The notes below the pieces were generated by a model. It was not told the origin of the DNA. It made no database searches and worked only from the letters and a program-made list of their open reading frames with translations. A stretch of DNA of 37,820 bases, taken from assembly GCA_023251675.1 (NCBI GenBank), contig JAHEYJ010000007.1:1-37820 (forward strand), read 5' to 3'. The first letter of the stretch is position 1. The number at the start of each line of letters is the position of its first letter. Source of the DNA: Bacteroidota bacterium (GTDB lineage Bacteria; Bacteroidota; Bacteroidia; Palsa-948). The position numbers were made by a program, and so were the translations under genes. Shown piece by piece: positions 6,202 to 36,736 of this stretch.

Positions 6202-6570
6202 TTACTTAACTTCAACTTCTGCTCCTGCTTCGGTTAGTTGTTTTCTCAAACTTTCAGCGTCTTCTTTAGAGACACCTTCTTTAACCGGTTTTGGTGCAGC
6301 ATCCACGAGATCTTTTGCTTCTTTAAGTCCGAGACCTGTAAGTTCTTTTACAAGTTTAACAACCTGAAGTTTGGCTTGTCCTCCGCTTTTGAGGATCACG
6401 TCAAAGGTTGATTTTTCAGCGGCTGCTGCTCCGGCAGCGGCTGGTGCTGCTGCAACGGCAGCTGCGGCTGGTTCGATTCCATACTCGTCCTTGAGTATTT
6501 TAGCCAATTCATTTACTTCTTTCACAGTTAAGTTTACTAACTGGTCTGCAATTTGCTTTAAGTCCGCCAT
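6202..6570 (-). CDS. rplL: 50S ribosomal protein bL12 (L7/L12)
   Basis: This is the ribosomal stalk protein that recruits translational GTPases; it binds uL10 as dimers. At 122 aa it has normal length. The N-terminal dimerisation region ([14 protein letters not shown]) is followed by an alanine-rich hinge at about residues 35-53, then the C-terminal globular domain starting near STFDVIL. The start is the ATG at 6570. It lies 43 bases downstream of rplJ in the same operon. Apart from the hairpin-rich spacer that follows it, nothing is unusual. Confidence 0.99.
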
Positions 6571-7193: not shown

Positions 7194-7883
7194 TTAGCCA
7201 ACAATTTTAGAGTCGATCTTAACGCCAGGGCTCATCGTGCTGGACATTACGATACTTTTTATATAGGTTCCTTTGGAAGCAGCCGGTTTGAGTTTTGCAA
7301 TGGACTGGATCAGTTCGTTTGCGTTATCAGCAATTTTATCTGCATCAAACGAAACTTTTCCAATGGATGCATGAACGATTCCCTGTTTGTCTGCTTTGAA
7401 ATCGATCTTGCCCGCCTTTACTTCTTTAACGGCTTTGCCAACTTCCATTGTAACGGTTCCGGATTTCGGGTTGGGCATGAGCCCGCGTGGACCGAGCACC
7501 TTTCCGAGTGCACCTACCTTTCCCATTACAGCGGGTGTGCAGACGATAACATCAATATCTGTCCATCCATTTTTAATTTTTTCTACATATTCGTCGAGAC
7601 CGACATGATCAGCGCCTGCCGCTTTTGCTTCTGCATCTTTGTCAGGAGTGCAAAGCACGAGTACGCGTACGGATTTGCCGATTCCGTGAGGCATCGCCAC
7701 GGTTCCGCGAACGATCTGGCCTTTTGCAGTATCAATACCCAGCCGAACACTGATATCAACTGAAGAATCAAACTTGGTGGTAGTTATTTCTTTAACGATC
7801 TTGGCTGCATCGCGCAGGTTATACACCTTAGTGGCGTCAAACTTGCCGATCACTGCTTTTCTTTTTTTAGTCAACTTTGCCAT
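7194..7883 (-). CDS. rplA: 50S ribosomal protein uL1
   Basis: This is the L1-stalk protein of the large subunit, 229 aa, involved in E-site tRNA release. The reading frame extends upstream to 7946, but that extension translates a heptamer array (residues like SQISNLKS). The real start is the ATG at 7883, beginning [15 protein letters not shown], which matches the family length. Typical uL1 segments are visible: [12 protein letters not shown], and [14 protein letters not shown]. It lies downstream of rplK and upstream of rplJ. The rplK-rplA spacer (about 145 bases) is unusually long for this operon and is filled by heptamer arrays. Confidence 0.98.
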
Positions 7884-7892
7884 GTAAATTCC

Positions 7893-8027
7893 AGATTTGA
7901 GATTTGAGATTTGAGATTTGAGAAGGAGCGCCATGCTCGTATTCATTTCTCTTAGCTCATTTCTTCATTTTAGTTTTTTCGTTTGTTTGTTGTCTTTTTA
8001 TCTCACGTCTAATATCTCACATCTCTC
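7893..8027. repeat. Inverted pair of 7-nt arrays in rplK-rplA spacer
   Basis: Array 1 (7893-7923) is four exact AGATTTG units plus a partial one. Array 2 (8000-8027) is four degenerate units, ATCTCAC, GTCTAAT, ATCTCAC, ATCTCTC. The TGAGA core of array 1 is complementary to the TCTCA core of array 2. Each repeats every seven bases, so the RNA could form a long stem with 2-nt internal loops around a 76-base loop. Confidence 0.8.
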
Positions 8028-8029
8028 TT

Positions 8030-8461
8030 CTATTTTTTTTCTTCCACATTGATACCCATGCTGCGTGCCTGGCCAGCAACCATGCTCATAGCGGATTCAA
8101 TCTTAAAACAGTTCATGTCAATCATTTTATCTTCGGCGATAGCTTTGATCTGAGCCCAGGAAACGGTACCTACCTTTTTTCTGTTGGGTTCTCCTGATCC
8201 ACTTTCGATCTTTAAGGCTTCTTTTAACTGGGCTGCAACCGGAGGCCGCTTAAGAACGAATTCAAATGTTTTATCTGTGTAAACAGTAATGATCGCCGGG
8301 ATCATTTTGTTGCCCAGCTCTTTTGTGCGGGCATTGAACTGCTTGCAGAACTCCATGATGTTCACTCCCTTTGCGCCGAGTGCCGGGCCGATAGGAGGAG
8401 CAGGGTTTGCAGCGCCTGCTTTAATTACCAGTTTTACTAATGCGCCTACTTCTTTTGCCAT
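8030..8461 (-). CDS. rplK: 50S ribosomal protein uL11
   Basis: This protein forms the GTPase-associated centre with 23S rRNA helices 43/44. It is 143 aa, starting [16 protein letters not shown] at the ATG at 8461. The proline-rich N-terminal signature ([16 protein letters not shown]) is intact; this is the thiopeptide-contacting region in the family. The C-terminal RNA-binding domain contains the GTARSMG-like segment, here [14 protein letters not shown]. It lies between nusG and rplA, and both flanking spacers carry heptamer arrays. Confidence 0.98.
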
Positions 8462-8471
8462 TGTATCTCTT

Positions 8472-8541
8472 AGATTTGAGATTTGAGATTTGAGATTTGA
8501 GAGGTGGTTTTTGTCTCACGTCTCATACTCTCACGTCTCAT
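8472..8541. repeat. Inverted pair of 7-nt arrays in nusG-rplK spacer
   Basis: Array 1 (8472-8499) is four exact AGATTTG copies, the same unit as at 7893. Array 2 (8513-8541) reads GTCTCAC, GTCTCAT, ACTCTCAC, GTCTCAT, with one unit lengthened by a base. TGAGA and TCTCA cores are complementary with a 7-base period and a loop of only 13 bases, so a bulged hairpin in the operon mRNA is likely. It fills nearly all of the 87-base spacer. Confidence 0.8.
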
Positions 8542-8548
8542 TTCTGTT

Positions 8549-22574: not shown

Positions 22575-23810
22575 TTAATTGCTTTCAAGTTCTTTTTCCA
22601 GTTCCGCTTCTGTTTTCAGCGTGGTCTCCAGGATGTCCAGGTACTGGAGCTTTGCCATTTGCAGATCATCCCAGGCCATTAACACCGGCAGCAGTTCACC
22701 GGTATTTTGCTGGTAGGCCAGCAGGCTGACTTCAAAATTTTTAGTATAAGCAGGAATTATTTTTTCGGAATAATTATCTAAAATATGATAGTTGGAACGC
22801 AGCTTGATCAGGTTCATCCGAACCATGCGGCTGGCCATATTCATCATTCCTGTTTTTTGCTGCTGCATCGCGTCGATCTGGAAATCCATGGCCCGCGCTT
22901 CCGATTTGTATTCTTTTGAAACCCAGGGAAGAATAGGAACCGTCATCGTTAATCCAAGCATGAAAGGATGGCGGTTGGTGTACGTATTGTTGCGCTGCAC
23001 CATCACTCCAAAATCAGGATGGGCCTGTGCCATCGTTAATTTCCTGTTAAGTTCCATGGAATTGATGGAGTTGTTCATTTTCTGAATATCGCTTCGTTTG
23101 CTTTCAAGGGTTTCCTTGGTTGTGTCAGGAGTTTGGTCCGTATATTTTTGAAGAGCGATTACTGTATCGATGGAAAAATTATTGGAAAGATTTTCATTCA
23201 TCATGTAATTCAAAGCGGCGGTGGCTTCGTCGATCATTCCCTGTTCTTCTGTCAGCATGCTTTCCTGTGTATTTAATTTTGCCTGCGCCCGGTAAACCGA
23301 CGGCAGGTCCGATTTGTTATAGGCGATCTGTAGTTCTGAAATATCCAGGATGAGCTGCAATAGGCGCAGGTTCTCTTTCAGTACTTTGGATTTTCTTTCT
23401 GCAATGTAACGTTCGTAATAAGCGGTTTTTGCCGCTGCAAAAAACTGGTTCTTTAAATATGAAGCATCGTTTGACTCCAGCGCGGCAAGCGATTTCAGAT
23501 AATCTTTCTTCGCATTTTGTTTCCGGGCATTCGGAATCATTTGACTTATTCCTACGGTTGCAGAATCGAATTCAAGACTAAGTGTTGGAGGCATCCAGCT
23601 TTTTACCCCTTTTGCCATTTCATTGGCTGATAAAATTTTGTTTTGATAGGATAGGATGGAGGGATTGTTTTTTTCAATCCGTGAAAGAACAGAATCAAGC
23701 GGAATCGTCTGACAGTTGGCAATTGGCAATTGGCAATTGGCAATAAGTATGGCAATCATTATTTGCAAACCGCCAACTGTAAACTGCCAATTTCTGTTCA
23801 ATGTTTTCAT
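22575..23810 (-). CDS. TolC-family outer-membrane efflux channel
   Basis: The 411-aa protein belongs to the outer-membrane factor family, forming the exit duct of an RND pump. Long helical stretches (about residues 60-210 and 265-411) carry the typical two-fold repeat, with LSLEFDSATVGISQ and PILPWVSKEYKSEA near strand regions. The signal-peptide region is odd. NWQFTVGGLQ and ANCQLPIANCQ are translated from two inverted heptamer arrays, yet still give a usable hydrophobic segment (IMIAILIA). It lies 6 bases after the CusA C-half and 6 bases before the first adaptor. Copper/silver specificity is inferred from the operon. Confidence 0.88.
   Translation of the reverse strand: MKTLNRNWQFTVGGLQIMIAILIANCQLPIANCQTIPLDSVLSRIEKNNPSILSYQNKILSANEMAKGVKSWMPPTLSLEFDSATVGISQMIPNARKQNAKKDYLKSLAALESNDASYLKNQFFAAAKTAYYERYIAERKSKVLKENLRLLQLILDISELQIAYNKSDLPSVYRAQAKLNTQESMLTEEQGMIDEATAALNYMMNENLSNNFSIDTVIALQKYTDQTPDTTKETLESKRSDIQKMNNSINSMELNRKLTMAQAHPDFGVMVQRNNTYTNRHPFMLGLTMTVPILPWVSKEYKSEARAMDFQIDAMQQQKTGMMNMASRMVRMNLIKLRSNYHILDNYSEKIIPAYTKNFEVSLLAYQQNTGELLPVLMAWDDLQMAKLQYLDILETTLKTEAELEKELESN
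23713..23792. repeat. Inverted pair of CAATTGG/GCCAATT heptamer arrays inside tolC-like gene
   Basis: Array 1 (23713-23743) has CAGTTGG and three CAATTGG units plus CAA. Array 2 (23772-23792) reads GCCAACT, GTAAACT, GCCAATT, the reverse complement of the same motif. Both lie within the first 33 codons, so the element codes for most of the signal peptide. Confidence 0.85.
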
Positions 23811-23816
23811 TTTTCT

Positions 23817-25736
23817 TTAATGCTTAATTGCCGAATCAACCATGTCCATTTTCCCGAATTTATTCAGTTCGTATTCTTTTACCATTTCAAAAACCACAGG
23901 GGTCGTAAGCAAGACAAAAACCGAAGAAGTAAAAACGCCGCCGATCATCGGAAGAACGATCGGGATCATCACGTCGCTGCCGACTCCTTTGCTCCACAAC
24001 ACAGGGACAAGCCCGAACAGCATCACCGCAACCGTCATCATTTTCGGGCGAAGCCGCTGGGCGGCTCCTTTATACACATAAGCGCGCAACTCATCATTTG
24101 AAATGGTTTGCCTTGAGTTGCCTTTCAGCCGTACCAGTTCGTGCATGGCTTCATGCAGGTAAATGACCATGAAAATACAGGTTTGCACTGCAATGCCGAA
24201 GAGGGCAATGAATCCAACGGCAACGGCAACCGATAAATTCACATGCCAGAAATACACGATATACACTCCGCCTACAAGTGAAAAAGGAACAGTGATCAAA
24301 CTGAAAAATGCTTCGCGTATCGATTTGTAAACCAGGTAGAGGACGATAAGAATAATGAGCAGTACAAAGGGGATAATTATTTTCAAAGTATTGGTAGCAT
24401 GGATCTGGTTTTCCCATTGGCCGCTCCAATCGATGTAATATCCTTTGGGGAGTTTTTTGATCGTGTCTTCAATTTTTTTCTTTGCATCGTTCACGGTGCT
24501 TCCCAGGTCTCTTCCGCGCACATTGAAAAGCACGGTTCCCCGCAGCATTGAATTTTCCGACTGGATCATGGGTGGCCCCTCAGAAATCTTTACATCGGCC
24601 ACTGCGGAAAGCGGGATCGGGCCGAAGTCCGTTGTTTTGATCAGGGTTTGCCTGATTTCATCAAGAGAACTGCGGTAATCCTGCGCAAGGCGTGCATTTA
24701 CGCTGAAACGCTGGCGGCCTTCAACGGTGGTGGTTAACTGCATTCCTCCTATTGCAGACTCTACTACCATGTTCACATCGTCAACGGTTAAGCCGTATCT
24801 CCCGATCTCCTCTTTTTTAATTTGAATGTCAATGTATTTTCCGCCCAGGATCGGTTCGGCATAGAGATCTTTCACGCCCTCCATCCCGGTAAGAGCCTGT
24901 TTTACTTTTTGCGCGACCAGATTGATGCTATCGAGATTGTCTCCGAATATTTTAACTCCTACATCGGTACGAATGCCTGTCGAAAGCATATTGATCCGGT
25001 TGATGATGGGCTGGGTCCATCCGTTCACGGTTCCCGGGATCTGGAGTTTGGCATTCAGTTCATTGATAATATCTTCTTTCGTCAGGCTGTCCCTCCATTC
25101 GTTCTTTGGTTTCAGCAGGATAATGGTTTCGATCATGCTGATGGGAGAGTTGTCGGTGGCGGTGCTTGCGCGCCCGGCTTTTCCCAGTACATACGAAACT
25201 TCCGGAACCGATTTGATCAGTTTGTCCTGAACCTGGAGAATTCTTTTTACCTCCGAGTTGGAAACATCAGGCAGCGTAACCGGCATAAATAATATACTTC
25301 CTTCATCAAGGGGCGGCATGAACTCCGTTCCCATATTCATCATCATGGGGATGCTGATCAGGAGGGCAATGACATTAATTCCAAGCGTTGTCTTTCTCCA
25401 TTTAAGGCACCACTTGATGACCGGAGAATACATTTTCTGAAGTACGTGGTTTACGGGGTTTTCCGTTTCAGGGCGGAATTTCTTTCCTTTCAGAAAAAAG
25501 GAAGCGAGAACCGGAACGAGTGTTATGGCAATGAATGCATCAATGAAAAGAATAAATGTTTTTGTCCAGGCTAAGGGCGAAAATAATTTTCCTTCCTGCC
25601 CGGTGAGCATAAATACCGGGAGGAAAGAGGCCACTATAATAATGGTAGAATAAAACGCCCCCTTGCCAATCTGCTGGCAGGCCTGCTCAATGATCGAGAG
25701 GCGTTTTTGTTCTTCTATTTGTTTTTCTTCGTTCAT
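23817..25736 (-). CDS. CusA-type RND pump, C-terminal half
   Basis: The 639-aa protein matches CusA from the loop after membrane helix 4 to the C-terminus; with the N-half at 26492 it totals 1062 aa, normal for CusA. It begins MNEEKQIEEQKRLSIIEQAC, which resembles the native interhelical loop, then ASFLPVFMLTGQEGKLF. Methionines of the metal-binding cluster of CusA align at M250 (RINMLSTGI) and M390 (GPPMIQSENS), with M332 (GGMQL) near the third. The proton-relay lysine is kept (K565, RPKMMTV), but the usual acidic residue of the IAVET-type motif is Q518 (IAVQTCIFM). The start lies 5 bases after the small HMBD gene. Both halves look undegraded. Confidence 0.9.
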   Translation of the reverse strand: MNEEKQIEEQKRLSIIEQACQQIGKGAFYSTIIIVASFLPVFMLTGQEGKLFSPLAWTKTFILFIDAFIAITLVPVLASFFLKGKKFRPETENPVNHVLQKMYSPVIKWCLKWRKTTLGINVIALLISIPMMMNMGTEFMPPLDEGSILFMPVTLPDVSNSEVKRILQVQDKLIKSVPEVSYVLGKAGRASTATDNSPISMIETIILLKPKNEWRDSLTKEDIINELNAKLQIPGTVNGWTQPIINRINMLSTGIRTDVGVKIFGDNLDSINLVAQKVKQALTGMEGVKDLYAEPILGGKYIDIQIKKEEIGRYGLTVDDVNMVVESAIGGMQLTTTVEGRQRFSVNARLAQDYRSSLDEIRQTLIKTTDFGPIPLSAVADVKISEGPPMIQSENSMLRGTVLFNVRGRDLGSTVNDAKKKIEDTIKKLPKGYYIDWSGQWENQIHATNTLKIIIPFVLLIILIVLYLVYKSIREAFFSLITVPFSLVGGVYIVYFWHVNLSVAVAVGFIALFGIAVQTCIFMVIYLHEAMHELVRLKGNSRQTISNDELRAYVYKGAAQRLRPKMMTVAVMLFGLVPVLWSKGVGSDVMIPIVLPMIGGVFTSSVFVLLTTPVVFEMVKEYELNKFGKMDMVDSAIKH

Positions 25737-25741
25737 CCGGA

Positions 25742-25966
25742 TTAGATCTTAACTTTTTTATCCAGCTCCATTTCTCCGCATTTAGGGCAGTTGCCGGGTT
25801 TGCATGAATTGACCTCGGGATGCATCGCGCACTGATAGTAGGCCTCGCCGGTTTTCAGTTTTGTCGTGTCGCACGGCTCAAAGGTTGCTTTGGTAGTGGA
25901 AGAATTTCCGCAGGCGCCAAATAAAAGGGAGAGCGCAACGGAAGATAACAGGATTGCTTTTTTCAT
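25742..25966 (-). CDS. Small HMBD lipoprotein
   Basis: The 74-aa protein has a lipoprotein signal (LLFGAC, C19) and one HMBD at residues 43-70: YYQCAMHPEV, then PGNCPKCGEMELDKK. The last motif has an extra glutamate between CG and M, unlike the CGMxL of the other copies. Additional cysteines at 32 and 55 could add ligands. It would face the periplasm and hand metal to, or take it from, the neighbouring pump. It lies between the two halves of the RND pump, 5 bases before the C-half. Confidence 0.85.
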   Translation of the reverse strand: MKKAILLSSVALSLLFGACGNSSTTKATFEPCDTTKLKTGEAYYQCAMHPEVNSCKPGNCPKCGEMELDKKVKI

Positions 25967-25985
25967 TGGTTAAATTTTTTTATGT

Positions 25986-26477
25986 TTATTTTTTCTCAAT
26001 TAAATCCATTCCGCACTTGAGGCATTTGCCGGGTTTATCCGACTTGACGTCGGGATGCATGGAGCAGGTGTACGAAATTCCATTCTGAACGGGAGCTTTG
26101 GTATCGGTTTTACCTTGTTTTGTTGAATCCTTCTGCTCATTGCTTCCGGTTTTGTTCTTGTCATCCATTCCGCCCATCATCGGGCACATCATTTTCATCC
26201 CTTTAGCATCTGACTTTTTCACAAGTGCCATCCCGCATTTAGGACAGTTGCCGGGTTTGTTGGATTGCACCTCGGGGTGCATCGGGCAAGTATATAAAGC
26301 GGTATCCGTTTTGGCGGTTGTGTTATTTGAAGATTTTTGGTTTTCAGTTGGTTCATTCTTGCTTTTATCTTTTTGTGCAGAAGCTTTCATTCCCCCGCAC
26401 ATTTGGCTGTAAGCGGTAGCGGCAAAGCAAAGCCATGTTGCGATCGCGGCGGTTTTTAAGATGTTTGTTGTTTTCAT
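25986..26477 (-). CDS. Periplasmic protein with two HMBDs
   Basis: The 163-aa protein has a signal peptide ending near ATAYSQ, then a CGGM motif. HMBD 1 is at residues 62-88 (YTCPMHPEV, CPKCGMALVKK) and HMBD 2 at 136-163 (YTCSMHPDV, CLKCGMDLIEKK). Between them is a Cys/Met-rich centre (MKMMCPMMGGM, residues 94-104) flanked by hydrophilic Lys/Asp/Asn linkers. This makes a flexible, multivalent soft-metal binder, probably for copper or silver. It follows the CusA N-half stop by 14 bases and precedes the small HMBD lipoprotein by 19. Confidence 0.87.
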   Translation of the reverse strand: MKTTNILKTAAIATWLCFAATAYSQMCGGMKASAQKDKSKNEPTENQKSSNNTTAKTDTALYTCPMHPEVQSNKPGNCPKCGMALVKKSDAKGMKMMCPMMGGMDDKNKTGSNEQKDSTKQGKTDTKAPVQNGISYTCSMHPDVKSDKPGKCLKCGMDLIEKK

Positions 26478-26491
26478 AATTTTTATTTTAT

Positions 26492-27763
26492 TTACTTTTT
26501 GTTTTGTTCTTCTGCCAGGTGTCGGTACGCGTTTTCCACCATCATGATCCCGTCATCCACCACTACACCGATAGCCAGCGCAATTCCGGTGATCGACATG
26601 ATGTTGGAGGAGATCCCAAAGGCGTTCAGTAAAATAAAGCTGGCGGCAATGGAAACAGGGATCTGAATGATGATCACAAAGGCGCTTCTGAAATGAAATA
26701 AGAAGATCAGGACAATGAGCGATACGACGATCATTTCTTCTATGATCGTTTTTTTGACCGAAGAAATACTTGCTTCGATCAGCTCGCTGCGGTCATAGGC
26801 TGTTTTGAATTTTATTCCGTCGGGAAGTCCTTTTTCAATATCGGTGAGTTTTATTTTTACTCTTTTGATCACTTCATCGGCATTTTCCCCATAACGCATC
26901 ACCACGATGCCGCCAACTACTTCTCCCTCGCCGTTCTCATCAAAGATTCCAAGACGCAGATCGCCTCCCATCTGAATGCTGGAGGAAACCATGCCAAGCG
27001 TAATGGGTGTTGTGCCATCTTTTCCGACCGCTATGTTCTCGATTTCCTCTTTTGATTTAATATATCCTAAGCCGCGAACTATATAGGCCATGTCACTCAT
27101 TTCGAATTTCCTTCCGCCTACATCGTTGTTGTTCGATTTCACTGCTTTTAAAACATCCATCAGTGATACGTTGTAATAATTTAATTTATGCGGATCGATG
27201 TTGATTTGGTATTGTTTCTGAAATCCGCCGAAAGAGGCGACTTCAGCGACGCCTTTGACGGTTTGCAATCCATATTTAATGTACCAGTCCTGAAGTGCGC
27301 GCAATTCGCCCAGATCGTATCCCTTTGCCTCAAGGGCATACCAAAAAATATGTCCTACACCGGTTCCATCCGGACCAAGCGTCGGTGAAACCCCTTCGGG
27401 AAGCAAGCGCTGGGCATAATTTAACCGTTCAAGAACACGGGTGCGAGCCCAGTAAATGTCAACATTGTCTTCAAAGATCACATAGACAAAACTCATCCCG
27501 AACATGGAGGATCCCCGCACTGTTTTTATTTTCGGAATGCTCTGCAAATTCGAAACAAGCGGATACGTCACCTGGTCTTCGATCACCTGCGGGCTGCGCC
27601 CCATCCATTCAGTGAAAACAATGACCTGGTTTTCAGACACGTCCGGTATAGCATCAATAGGATTGTTCTTTACCGACCATGCGCCCCAGCCAAAAAGGGC
27701 GGCGCTGATCAGCAGAACTATCCAGCGATTGCGGAATGAAAAGGCGATAAGGTATTTTACCAT
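26492..27763 (-). CDS. CusA-type RND pump, N-terminal half
   Basis: The 423-aa protein begins MVKYLIAFSFRNRWIVLL and covers membrane helix 1, the first large periplasmic region (NQVIVFTEWMGRSP, YWARTRVLERL) and helices 2-4. The helix-4 aspartate of the proton relay is present as D403 (VVVDDGIMMVENAYRHL). It ends EEQNKK and a stop, exactly where the intact family continues through a cytoplasmic loop to the part encoded at 23817-25736. Its start overlaps the stop of the HMA protein (TAATG). No frameshift or decay is visible. It should be inactive alone and needs the C-half to complete the pump. Confidence 0.9.
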   Translation of the reverse strand: MVKYLIAFSFRNRWIVLLISAALFGWGAWSVKNNPIDAIPDVSENQVIVFTEWMGRSPQVIEDQVTYPLVSNLQSIPKIKTVRGSSMFGMSFVYVIFEDNVDIYWARTRVLERLNYAQRLLPEGVSPTLGPDGTGVGHIFWYALEAKGYDLGELRALQDWYIKYGLQTVKGVAEVASFGGFQKQYQINIDPHKLNYYNVSLMDVLKAVKSNNNDVGGRKFEMSDMAYIVRGLGYIKSKEEIENIAVGKDGTTPITLGMVSSSIQMGGDLRLGIFDENGEGEVVGGIVVMRYGENADEVIKRVKIKLTDIEKGLPDGIKFKTAYDRSELIEASISSVKKTIIEEMIVVSLIVLIFLFHFRSAFVIIIQIPVSIAASFILLNAFGISSNIMSITGIALAIGVVVDDGIMMVENAYRHLAEEQNKK

Positions 27764-32222: not shown

Positions 32223-33956
32223 TCATTGATCTGTTTCGATCACCTTCAGCTTTCGGAGCGCTTTATTTTCTTCAACGGCATACAGCATTTTGAAATCATT
32301 GAATGAGATCTGTTTGTAGCTGGCCTTGGAAATGGAAGCTTTCTGTACAAATCCCCGGGGGACTAAGGTCTTTTTCACTATGCCGTCCAGCATAAGTTCG
32401 ATCGGCATTTTGAAATCTGTATTTACATTGTTCCAGCGGTAAAAAAAGTTTTCACCTTCCCACCAGTATTCAAACACAGGCGCTTTGCGGTTATAAAGAT
32501 ATTGGTTGAAGAACCAGTTGAAGTCATAGTTCGTTTTTTCATTCACAATGGAAACAAAATCTTTTGAGCAGGTGGTTTTCAGTTTGTAGCGGTCGTAAAA
32601 TGTTTTAATAATATCAAAGAAGACTTCATCGTCATTGATCACCGAGCGTAACGTATGCAGCACCCATGCGCCTTTCTGGTAACAGTCGCTGTTCCGGTAA
32701 TCAAAATACCTTCCGTCGACCGGCCCGACCACCGGCCATTTGTTTTTAATGAAGAGCCGGTAGAACAGCATGTAACGATAATACGCATTTAGACCTTGTG
32801 TGCTTTCAACATACAACGCTTCGCTGTACGTAGCAAATCCTTCCTGGAGCCACACATCGGCAAAATCAGCAGCCGTCACCGCGTTGCCCCACCATTCATG
32901 TGCGCTTTCGTGAAGAATGATGTAATCGAAATCTCCGCCGTAACTGTTCTTGTAGCCTTGTCCGTACGCAATAGCCGTTTGATGTTCCATTCCTTCGTAT
33001 GGCGATTCGATCAGTTTATATCCGTCTTTGTACCATGGATATTCCCCGAACTTCTTTTCATAAAAGGCGATCTGCTGTTTTGCCTGCGGAAGATGCGCTT
33101 TTGCTCTCTCGTAATTATACGTCAGGACATAATGATTGATGGGAAGTATTTTTCCCGATGGCATGGTGTACGTATCCGGCAGAAGAGAAAACTTTCCCAC
33201 GTAAATGCTGACATCATAAAGGTTGATCGGGTAGGAGATCGCCCATTTGTAAGTGGTACTGTTCCCGTTCTCTTCTTTCCCGAGGAGATGCCCGTTGCTG
33301 ACGCCAACCAGTCCGTTTGAAACCGTAATATTTACTGCTGCGCTGTCGGGTTCATCGTTGTTAACGTCTTTGCAGGGCCACCAGAGCGATGCCCCTTCCG
33401 TTTCACAGGCCACGCCGATCCATGGATTTTTTTCTTTGTCCGTTTTCCAGACAAAACCTCCCCGCCACGGTGGTTTTTTTGCAACGACAGGAGCTCCTTC
33501 GTAATCGATCTTTATTTTGAAAATTTCTCCTGCTCTTTGTTTAAATGGAATGAAAATGGCTCCGTATTTCCTGGAATAAGAAGTAGTAATGAATTTAGTG
33601 TCCTTTTCCTGGACCGAATTTAACGTTGCCACTCCGATCGAATTCACTTTCATATTTTCATACAGGTCGATCTGGAGGGTGTCAAAGTCAGTTACAGCCG
33701 TTGCGCTTATGGTCACCGTTCCTTTCAGGTATTTCTTCTTGTCATCAACAGTAACATTGAGCTCATAAAATGTTTCATCGAAGCAGTTTCGGTATTTTGT
33801 ATTTTCTTTTCCCAATAATTTTGTGGATTCAGAAAACTTCGGATACTTGCCCGCATGCTTCGGTGTAGTAACCGTTTTGTGAATTCCAAGTAGTGAGCAT
33901 GAAGAAAGAGAAGCAAGTATCAGGTAGCAGGCAGCAAGAAATAAATTGTTTTTCAT
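32223..33956 (-). CDS. M1-family metallopeptidase lipoprotein
   Basis: The 577-aa zinc aminopeptidase-like protein has a lipoprotein signal (LSSC, C20). The zinc motif HESAH is at residues 349-353, with the third ligand E372, giving HExxH-x18-E. The exopeptidase motif is GMEHQ (322-326), replacing the usual GxMEN. This departure is seen in some secreted bacterial M1 members and may alter N-terminus recognition. It is probably tethered to the outer membrane or periplasm for peptide scavenging. Its ATG lies in an ATTCGTA heptamer copy, and it follows valS by 59 bases. Confidence 0.9.
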   Translation of the reverse strand: MKNNLFLAACYLILASLSSCSLLGIHKTVTTPKHAGKYPKFSESTKLLGKENTKYRNCFDETFYELNVTVDDKKKYLKGTVTISATAVTDFDTLQIDLYENMKVNSIGVATLNSVQEKDTKFITTSYSRKYGAIFIPFKQRAGEIFKIKIDYEGAPVVAKKPPWRGGFVWKTDKEKNPWIGVACETEGASLWWPCKDVNNDEPDSAAVNITVSNGLVGVSNGHLLGKEENGNSTTYKWAISYPINLYDVSIYVGKFSLLPDTYTMPSGKILPINHYVLTYNYERAKAHLPQAKQQIAFYEKKFGEYPWYKDGYKLIESPYEGMEHQTAIAYGQGYKNSYGGDFDYIILHESAHEWWGNAVTAADFADVWLQEGFATYSEALYVESTQGLNAYYRYMLFYRLFIKNKWPVVGPVDGRYFDYRNSDCYQKGAWVLHTLRSVINDDEVFFDIIKTFYDRYKLKTTCSKDFVSIVNEKTNYDFNWFFNQYLYNRKAPVFEYWWEGENFFYRWNNVNTDFKMPIELMLDGIVKKTLVPRGFVQKASISKASYKQISFNDFKMLYAVEENKALRKLKVIETDQ

Positions 33957-34030
33957 TCGTAATTACTCGCTGTTTAATTGTTGATTTGGTATTTGTGAAT
34001 GCTTCGCATTTCGTTCTAATTCGTAATTCG
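33955..34030. repeat. ATTCGTA/TAATTCG heptamers between M1 peptidase and valS
   Basis: One element (33955-33968: ATTCGTA, ATTACTC) overlaps the peptidase start codon. A second (34010-34030: TTCGTTC, TAATTCG, TAATTCG) overlaps the end of valS and its stop codon, so the last ValRS residues LRITN are repeat-encoded. A small AATGC/GCATT hairpin lies between them. Confidence 0.7.
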
Positions 34031-36736
34031 TAGTGCAGCAAGTTGTTCTTCGATGGCTTTGATCTTTGACTCTGCATCGGCTTGTTTCTTTTTTTCCATT
34101 TCTAAAACCTCAGGTTTGGCGCCTTGAACGAAACGCTCGTTGGAGAGTTTTTTTTGAACGGAGATTAGAAAACCTTTGTTGTATTCGAGCTCCTCTGAAA
34201 GCCGTTTTTTTTCGATGTCAAAATTGATATTCTCATCCATTGGAACATAAAATGTAGTTGCTCCGATTGGTGATGAAATGCTATAAGCATAACTAAGTTT
34301 TATTCCGAGCGGAGTAGAGTTGATGGATTCAAGATTTGCAAGTTTTGATTTTACTGAATCAAAATTTGTATTCCAGTATCCACCTTCAAGATAAAATAAT
34401 TTTATAGATTTTTTTGGTGACAATCCTACAGATTGTCTTAAGTCTCTAATATTCGAAATAATTGTCTTCACTATATTTCCATCGAAAATAATTTCTGAGT
34501 TATAAGAAGATTGTTTCGGCCACTCCGCCATCATGATGCATTCTTTCTCTTTTCTAACCCCGATCAAATGCCATAGCTCCTCGGTGATGAAAGGCATGAA
34601 CGGATGCAATACTTTTAAAAGCTTTTCAAAGAAGTTTATTGTTGCATCATAAGTTGGTTTGTCAATGGGGTTTGATTTTCCATCTACGAACTCCGGTTTT
34701 ATCATTTCCAGGTACCAGGCGCAGAAATCATCCCATACCAATTTATAAGTTGCCATCAAAGTTTCTGAAATTCTGTATTTGGAATATAGATCATTTATGT
34801 TTTCGAGTTCCGCATTGAACTTTGCATCGAACCATTCGACAGAAATTTTGTTTCCATCGGATTGTTCAATCTTCTCATCAACTTCCCACATTTTAACAAG
34901 GCGAAAGGCGTTCCATATTTTATTTGAAAAATTTCTTCCCTGTTCGCAATAGCTTTTATCGAACGGAAGGTCGTTTCCAGCGGGTGAACACAGCAACATT
35001 CCAACACGAACGCCATCGGCTCCGTATTTTTCCATCAGTTCAATAGGCTCGGGAGAATTTCCCAGCGACTTGCTCATTTTCCTTCCCAGTTTGTCGCGGA
35101 CGATGCCGGTGAGATAAACATTGGTGAATGGTTTCTCTTTTCGGTATTCGTATCCGGCAATGATCATCCGTGCTACCCAGAAAAAGAAGATCTCGGGTGC
35201 AGTTACCAGGTCATTTGTAGGGTAATAATATTTTATATCCGCATTGTTCGGGTCTTTGAATCCATCAAAAACAGAGATCGGCCACAGCCAGGAAGAGAAC
35301 CATGTGTCGAGTACGTCTTCATCCTGGTGGAGATGTTGGATGTTAGATGTTGGATATTGGATGTTATAAAGGCGCTTCGCTTCTTCATGAGTCTTAGCCA
35401 CAACAACATTTCCTTTTTCATCGTACCATGCCGGGATCCGTTGTCCCCACCAGAGCTGGCGCGAAATGCACCAATCGTGCACGTTCTCCATCCAGTGCCT
35501 GTACGTGTTGATGAATTTATTCGGAATAAGTTTTATCTCTCCATTCACAACAGCATCCAGTGCGGGTTTGGAAAGTACTTTTCCATTAAAAGTAAGTTCG
35601 TCAGAGGACATGTTCACAAACCATTGCATGGAATGTTTCTGTTCTATCACCGCATCCGTGCGCTCGGAATAACCTACATTATTTTTTATTTCTTCAACTT
35701 TTACCAAGTGCCCACGTTCTTCAAGTTCTTTTACAATTTTTTTTCTAACAATGAATCGGTCTTCTCCAATATAAAATTTTGCCTCTGGACTCATCGTGCC
35801 GTTTGTGGTAATTACATCAATAAAATCGAGTCTGTATTTGTTGCCTAGTGCATAGTCGTTTTTATCATGAGCAGGTGTGACTTTCAAAGCGCCGGTTCCG
35901 AATTCACGGTCAACGTATTCGTCAAAAATTATCGGAACGCTTCGTTCCACCATCGGAACGATCGCTCGTTTTCCTTTTAAGTTTTTATAACGTTCGTCTT
36001 CGGGATGAACACAAATAGCAGTATCGCCAAGGATGGTTTCGGGTCGTGTAGTGGCAATCGTTATCCAGGCCCCATCCTCTTGTGCATCTCCGAGGGAGAG
36101 GGGAGAGTTATCCCCGTTCACTAATTTATATCGGACATGATATAGTTTTGAATTGATTTCTTTGTAAATAACTTCTTCGTCCGATACGGCTGTCATTCCT
36201 GCAGGATCCCAGTTCACCATCCGGTGGCCGCGATAGATGTATCCTTTATTATATAGATCAATGAAAACATCAATTACCGCTTCGCTGAGGGAATCTTCCA
36301 TGGTGAAACGGGTTCGGTCCCAGTCGCAGGAGCAGCCCAGTTTTTTCAGCTGTTCAAGAATGATCCCGCCGTATTTTTCTTTCCATTCCCAGGCGTGTTT
36401 CAGGAATTCTTCGCGTGAAAGATCAGATTTCTTGATTCCTTTTTCTTTCAGCAGGGCCACCACTTTTGCTTCAGTGGCAATGGAAGCATGATCCGTTCCC
36501 GGAACCCAGCAGGCATTCTTTCCTAACATTCTCGCCCTGCGAATCAGCACATCCTGAATGGTGTTGTTGAGCATATGTCCCATGTGAAGGACTCCCGTAA
36601 CGTTCGGGGGAGGGATAACGATGGTGTATGGCTCGCGGTTATCCGGCACTGATCTGAAAAATTTCTTCTCCATCCAATAGGAATACCATTTGGATTCTAC
36701 CTCTTTTGGACTGTATGTTTTGGGTATTTCTGACAT
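34016..36736 (-). CDS. valS: Valyl-tRNA synthetase
   Basis: This class I synthetase charges tRNA-Val; it is 906 aa, close to the family norm. The HIGH-type motif HMGH is in [12 protein letters not shown], and KMSKS is in [11 protein letters not shown]. The editing (CP1) domain contains [13 protein letters not shown]. The C-terminal coiled-coil arm ([14 protein letters not shown] to the end) is typical of ValRS. Two oddities are seen. Residues about 457-468 ([11 protein letters not shown]) are encoded by a five-copy heptamer array just before the conserved [11 protein letters not shown]. The last residues are repeat-encoded. The ATG at 36736 begins [14 protein letters not shown]. Confidence 0.98.
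35332..35366. repeat. Five-copy GATGTTG heptamer array inside valS
   Basis: The units are GATGTTG, GATGTTA, GATGTTG, GATATTG, GATGTTA: exactly 35 bases. Since three units span 21 bases, the array encodes a seven-residue period ([10 protein letters not shown]...) and keeps the frame open. It lies in the loop immediately before a conserved catalytic-domain block. Confidence 0.85.

Follow-up and report, generated by a model that had tools for sequence, protein, structure and literature searches.

A predicted Sec signal peptide written in an inverted pair of heptanucleotide repeats in a TolC-family gene of an uncultivated Bacteroidota genus

The window, i.e., the whole stretch of DNA analyzed here, comprises 37,820 nucleotides from a member of an uncultivated Bacteroidota genus and carries on the reverse strand a gene for a TolC-family outer-membrane efflux channel (Table 1). 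The operon around this gene represents a Cus-type heavy-metal efflux system with an RND pump, HMBD/HMA proteins and CusB-like fusion proteins. When solved structures were searched by sequence with the channel, no match was obtained. A 7-member alignment offered no conserved stretch suitable for a profile search. The Cus-type RND pump is split into two ORFs both in the window (23817-27763) and in locus L149 (6778-9971), with the ACR_tran profile aligned over 2-419 and 411-1020. In the congener G003, there is a 4-nt overlap between the two ORFs (425 and 639 aa); in the window, approximately 750 nt with a heavy-metal-binding-domain (HMBD) protein lie between them. Judging by these ORFs, the pump is a split one and not a sequencing error.

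Table 1. Coordinates of the features discussed in the text (window positions; minus sign, reverse strand)
Feature	Position	Strand	Remarks
TolC-family outer-membrane efflux channel gene	22575..23810	-	411 aa; Pfam OEP, E 9e-21
Signal-peptide coding stretch, codons 1-34 (MKTLNRNWQFTVGGLQIMIAILIANCQLPIANCQ)	23709..23810	-	predicted cleavage ANC/Q
Arm 1, degenerate array TTGGCAG TTTACAG TTGGCGG TTTGCAA	23763..23790	-	codes NWQFTVGGLQ, n-region side
Loop, 18-19 nt	23745..23762	-	in-frame ATG (codon 18), one stray TTGCCAT copy
Arm 2, TTGCCAA x4.1 + CTGTCAG	23709..23744	-	codes LIANCQLPIANCQ, h- and c-region; inverted partner of arm 1
(TCTCAAA)4.4	7893..7923	-	ends about 10 nt before likely ATG (near 7883) of ribosomal-protein-type gene 7194-7883
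(TCTCAAA)4.4	8472..8502	-	ends about 10 nt before ATG of gene 8030-8461
GAGACGT-type inverted partner of the 8472..8502 array	8513-8540		
Signal peptide of M1-peptidase-like lipoprotein, MKNNLFLAACYLILASLSSC	33897..33956	-	second heptamer-patterned signal peptide in the window

In the sense strand, the channel gene begins with ATGAAAACATTGAACAGAAA, continues with arm 1, the intervening ATAATGATTGCCATACTTA and arm 2, and goes on with ACGATT; the translation reads MKTLNRNWQFTVGGLQIMIAILIANCQLPIANCQ followed by TIPLD. The heptamer arms begin after 20 nt, and codons 7-34 consist of a degenerate heptamer array, a short loop and the inverted partner of the array. An earlier note, made from this sequence alone, placed the arms in codons 6-33; the pair is present, although the arms are located at codons 7-16 and about 22-34 and match imperfectly (71% over 31 nt). 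Arm 2 contains a perfect tandem array (4.1 copies, 100%, detected by TRF at 23716-23744). Arm 1 fits TTGGCAR x4 in 24 of 28 letters, shows 13 matches out of 21 at lag 7 (shuffle p = 0.00015), and is a decayed array of the unit of arm 2. The ungapped complementarity of the two arms is 21/28, compared to 13.8 when the codons of arm 1 are permuted (0 of 1000 permutations were as good), and the arm duplex has an energy of -32.3 kcal/mol, compared to -18.1 kcal/mol for the codon-permuted versions (p = 0.003); the pairing in RNA rests partly on G-U pairs. The lag-7 matches, the TRF array and the codon-permuted complementarity thus confirm the proposal that the start of this gene is built from an inverted heptamer pair. 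The locus combines tandem 7-nt copies beyond chance, as in heptanucleotide simple sequence repeats, with in-frame palindromic DNA inside an ORF, as in Rickettsia palindromic elements.

Sequence inspection and a home-made predictor both find the properties of a Sec signal peptide in the encoded N-terminus: a basic n-region (MKTLNR), a hydrophobic h-region (IMIAILIANC), and small residues at -3 and -1 of a predicted cleavage site, A-N-C/Q. Residue Q34, which follows the predicted cleavage site, falls on a Q that is invariant in every orthologue aligned. These features bear out the earlier suggestion of a plausible signal peptide; by its sequence, the stretch, the DNA of which is a heptanucleotide tandem-repeat pair, is probably the working Sec signal peptide of the efflux channel and would direct export. 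The start codon lies about 5-7 nt past the upstream stop codon, in the window and in G003 alike. A downstream start at the ATG of codon 18 is unlikely, because the resulting signal would contain no basic residue and because the upstream ATG is conserved after the stop of the preceding gene in both species.

Orthologues of the channel were sought in 60 related genomes, and the closest one was that of G003 (76% identity by search). Its first 33 residues are MKENEVSKQSAVNNRQVILSIVYCLLSTLGFAQ, and the underlying DNA contains, at the same place, an AGTARAC-type inverted pair (AGTAAAC AGTCAGC AGTAAAC AACAGAC / TTGTCCA TTGTCTA CTGTCTG TTATCTA), the unit of which differs from the TTGGCAA unit of the window. 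The identity between the two proteins is 9/32 (28%) in the signal peptide compared to 298/377 (79%) in the mature part. Comparison of orthologous N-termini, which had been proposed as a check, therefore did not refute the repeat-based reading, the nearest N-terminus being different and made of a different heptamer pair. Swapping the arms between the two loci lowers the number of matches (from 21 and 18 of 28 for the window and G003 to 14 and 17) and the stability of the duplexes (from -32 and -22 kcal/mol to -18.5 and -12.3 kcal/mol), the pairing in G003 alone being marginal (p 0.03-0.05). Outside the genus, the orthologues carry ordinary signals or, in G052, a different palindrome; hence the view that the repeat replaced the ancestral export signal is sustained. 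The G052 palindrome, of the CCCCCTTCAAAGGGGG type, is located in the signal peptide (locus L021, reverse strand, from 1404).

We surveyed 1.21 Mb from four congeners (draft assemblies), in which gene starts and signal peptides were called by simple, permissive home-made scripts and arrays were scored in windows by the number of matches at lag k. Period-7 arrays overlapped 37 of the 347 predicted signal peptides (about one in ten), this class being partly defined by hydrophobicity, which an array can itself supply; the overlaps at k = 5, 6, 8, 9, 10 and 11 were 8, 8, 6, 4, 1 and 2, respectively; in G006, the contrast was weak (5 versus 4 at k = 8). Codon-permuted signal peptides yielded 0.73 overlaps on average (max 2), compared to 34 observed in the same test. 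Under a stricter threshold, there were 63 period-7 arrays in 718 kb of the genome of the window versus 1-11 for the other periods tested. Rather than being an isolated oddity at one gene, the element belongs to a pattern found across the genus. The genome of the window holds many different heptamer units, not one or few fixed units such as TAACTGA. Outside the genus, period-7 arrays in predicted signal peptides were present but sparse (5 of about 155).

The placement of 160 period-7 arrays was highly uneven. There were 38 arrays in signal-peptide regions (7.0 expected), 37 within 120 nt upstream of starts (7.9 expected, 4.7-fold), where they were concentrated 8-37 nt before the start, and 13 just past stop codons (3.8 expected), as opposed to 54 in gene interiors (106 expected) and four in the first 150 nt of other genes (11.9 expected). 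T exceeded A in the sense strand of signal-peptide arrays (29:7), whereas A exceeded T in internal arrays (40:12; Fisher p = 1e-7), i.e., the protein context picks the repeat strand that is read. The period-7 arrays inside ORFs (L059 14370, L082 387, L087 6548 and about 50 others) are mostly A-rich in the sense strand, encode polar heptapeptides, and are apparently tolerated linkers. In the window, a degenerate GATGTTG array (35332-35365) lies within a valyl-tRNA synthetase-like gene (34016-36736), an unusual site in an essential enzyme, and an 18-nt GC-rich repeat (6417-6470) in a small ORF (6202-6570) of the ribosomal operon probably encodes an Ala-rich hinge.

An inverted partner was found for 24% of the upstream intergenic arrays, compared to 3%; for signal-peptide arrays, an ungapped test gave 3% versus 3%. 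Over 70 signal-peptide loci, own arms paired no better than swapped arms in a crude test in which some arms were cut. Locus-specific arm pairing as a rule for signal-peptide arrays is therefore rejected; it holds at the TolC gene, weakly in its orthologue, and in intergenic upstream arrays. As signal-peptide arrays do not generally come in inverted pairs, the two-armed TolC design represents a subset of them. The leaders of two adjacent ribosomal-operon genes of the window (7883-8040 and 8462-8545) each contain a purine-rich GAGAYGT-type inverted partner upstream of the (TCTCAAA)4.4 array. According to PMC3155529, the phylum generally lacks Shine-Dalgarno sequences.

Because an array can itself produce a hydrophobic signal-peptide call, the gliding lipoprotein GldD was anchored independently by Pfam (PF25593, E 7e-66), and this Pfam-anchored set is a clean control for period-7 signal peptides. 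In six of seven congeners, the stretch from the start codon to the lipobox is mostly a patchwork of heptamers, mostly of differing units, with signals such as MIFTPQATSHKSQVFFLTVTLCLLTFYFLLLASC, MSFKFQVTSHKSQVFLLSFFASCLLPIANCFFSSC and MIVKSKVKSQKSKVFLVAAFLLLTSYFLLLTSC. The best period-7 score in the genus was 23.9/28 on average, with 6/7 at >= 18/28, compared to 11.7 and 1/30 in 30 genomes outside the genus, where a few scored stretches missed the true signal. The first arm is A-rich and codes the basic n-region; the second arm is T-rich and codes the hydrophobic core. The units of the first arm across congeners (AAGTCAC, AAGTCAA, AAGTTCA and AAGTTTA, at a fixed start codon) look like one drifting array. 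Period-8 repeats were observed in the signal region of GldD in G057 (L226, KLSNLFVSSFKLSNLFVSSFKLSNLF) and in or near GldD in G023 (L241), where the scored region may miss the true signal.

Similar turnover occurs in other exported families. For the M1-peptidase-like lipoproteins (L174-L180), congeners carry different, mostly heptamer-patterned lipoprotein signals, and the same kind of turnover is seen, in part, for PD40 and T9SS-tailed proteins in several congeners. In G005, the M1-like lipoprotein (L177) has a CGTCATTGCGAGC-type palindromic repeat in frame instead of heptamers. Further in-frame palindromes in signal peptides (loci L021, L199 and L207) include CCCCCTACCCCCTTCAAAGGGGG (SPYPLQRGTKNIPLTPLIRGT), CCTGCCTGCCGGACAGGCAGG (LPAGQAG) and, in G006 (L199), a CTCCCC/GGGGAG palindrome, CTCCCC...GGAGAGGGG. 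It looks as if the N-termini of exported proteins were, in general, places where such elements land or are tolerated.

The strongest competitor of a repeat grown in place is an in-frame mobile palindromic element, similar to a MITE or a Rickettsia palindromic element, that inserted after the start codon and took the place of the previous signal, with a separate insertion in each congener. The different units of the congeners are compatible with this scenario, as are the other dispersed palindromes at the same spot in related genes (L177 of G005, L021 of G052 and L199 of G006); MITE/REP-type palindromes are also short, have inverted arms and occupy many loci. However, a TTGGCAA probe of the own genome gave 18 matches, and those inspected besides the TolC locus lacked the same loop and partner, so that neither a second arm-loop-arm copy nor dispersed copies of the whole element, as in Rickettsia palindromic elements, were seen among the inspected TTGGCAR-like arrays. 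In addition, the arms here consist of tandem heptamers, a family consensus or shared ends as in MITE/REP-type palindromes were not seen, and the first GldD arm resembles a single drifting array at a fixed start codon. We consider this explanation unlikely. The earlier note allowed for both insertion and growth at the gene start; because congeners carry heptamer arrays with drifting units at the same sites, the evidence leans toward growth and homogenization in place, and insertion is disfavored.

Even less probable is a phase-variation (contingency) switch, in which gain or loss of one 7-nt unit would shift the frame and turn the efflux channel off or on. Seven is not a multiple of three, the clean array is 29 nt long, a non-triplet tandem repeat directly behind the start codon is a feature shared with contingency loci, and simple repeats near N-termini, which Lin and Kussell noted to be enriched there (cited in PMC4692102), are commonly taken as a sign of phase variation. 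Against this interpretation, there are only about four clean copies, the arms have largely degenerated, the orthologues examined have open frames at their N-termini, and untranslated leaders, where a frame switch is meaningless, are equally enriched in arrays, among them leaders of housekeeping genes such as those for ribosomal proteins.

The hairpin itself deserves separate consideration. The strong hairpin that had been predicted after the start codon is confirmed: the 5' end of the TolC RNA folds with -35.1 kcal/mol (z = -3.7), the third most stable among 347 signal-peptide genes sampled in the genus, and in G003 the orthologue, which has a different sequence, likewise forms a stronger fold than its codon permutations do (z = -3.0). 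These values are in line with selection for a hairpin that tunes translation or membrane targeting, the peptide being incidental, but array-bearing signal-peptide genes do not exceed the array-free ones in structure (p = 0.49) and most signal-peptide arrays have no detectable inverted partner. A function of the hairpin common to signal-peptide arrays is thus rejected, and the hairpin represents a local outcome at the TolC locus; we regard selection for it as improbable even there. Finally, chance or a misread start codon can be dismissed as having next to no probability: a few hydrophobic residues do dominate signal peptides and raise self-similarity at any period, but codon permutation (0.73 versus 34) and other periods (1-8 versus 37) reject a chance or low-complexity origin, and the ATG is conserved directly after the upstream stop.

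We therefore favor, with a probability of roughly two in three, the explanation that 7-nt repeats arise and are homogenized in place and survive by selection, the TolC stretch being a Sec signal built from such a pair. The repeats would be born and homogenized probably by replication slippage, for which 7 nt has been proposed as a favored length (PMC4692102, PMC4679880), and arm-to-arm copying via template switching would account for the two-armed cases. Selection on the protein or the mRNA would spare the repeats only where composition alone matters, i.e., in signal peptides (T-rich sense strand), in the ~40 nt before start codons, and in hydrophilic linkers (A-rich sense strand); a dedicated regulatory role is probably absent. 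Since 7 is coprime to 3, the heptapeptide encoded by a 7-nt array does not depend on the frame, and therefore growth of the array extends one hydrophobic motif; the array stays open unless its 21-nt word holds a stop. The T/C-rich strand codes L/F/I/A/C, suitable for the h-region, and its reverse complement polar or basic residues. Because AAR (lysine) complements YTT (phenylalanine/leucine), a purine-first inverted pair spells an n-region followed by an h-region. Drift of the unit would alter the sequence of the signal and leave its character. A broader proposition, to which we give somewhat less than even odds, is that heptanucleotide repeats routinely give rise to the signal peptides of this lineage and keep rewriting them, with purine-first pairs as ready-made n+h modules, so that a mutational process supplies export signals.

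The closest published systems are heptanucleotide simple repeats and Rickettsia palindromic elements, and the TolC element is neither exactly. TAACTGA repeats were described in Beggiatoaceae, Cyanobacteria and five Bacteroidetes (PMC4679880), GGGAATC repeats in Xanthomonas and GGGGA(C/T)T repeats in Nostoc (PMC4692102). These are likewise 7-nt tandem arrays of few copies, dispersed and favored near start codons, with polymerase slippage proposed as the source; however, those studies deal with one or few fixed units, mainly intergenic, whereas the genus analyzed here has dozens of units, an inverted partner in approximately one quarter of the upstream arrays, and a second strong home in signal-peptide codons. 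Rickettsia palindromic elements (Ogata 2000/2002) are, as reviewed in PMC10969869, in-frame palindromic repeats tolerated in many unrelated protein genes, and the repetitive palindromic DNA in frame within protein genes is shared with the present case. They are described there as sequence families of ~150 bp with a conserved peptide, whereas only the 7-nt period is conserved here; furthermore, the main coding site here is the signal peptide, where a repeat can supply function. The open-licence literature searched yielded no description of signal peptides that are built from repeats and rapidly replaced.

The origin of new signal peptides is mostly discussed as tolerance of random hydrophobic sequence. 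In this genus, repeat DNA apparently serves as functional protein-export signals that are rewritten again and again. Signal peptides of this natural lineage would be supplied repeatedly by 7-nt repeats, in some cases arranged as inverted pairs, and would be replaced faster than the mature protein evolves, which makes testable both the DNA process that writes the repeats and the frequency of export-signal swaps without loss of function. For annotators, we suggest that odd N-termini in Bacteroidota, for example LPIANCQLPIANCQ and LLPAAYCLAQ, probably represent genuine signals derived from repeats. The same process may bear on the heptamer arrays found just upstream of starts in other phyla.
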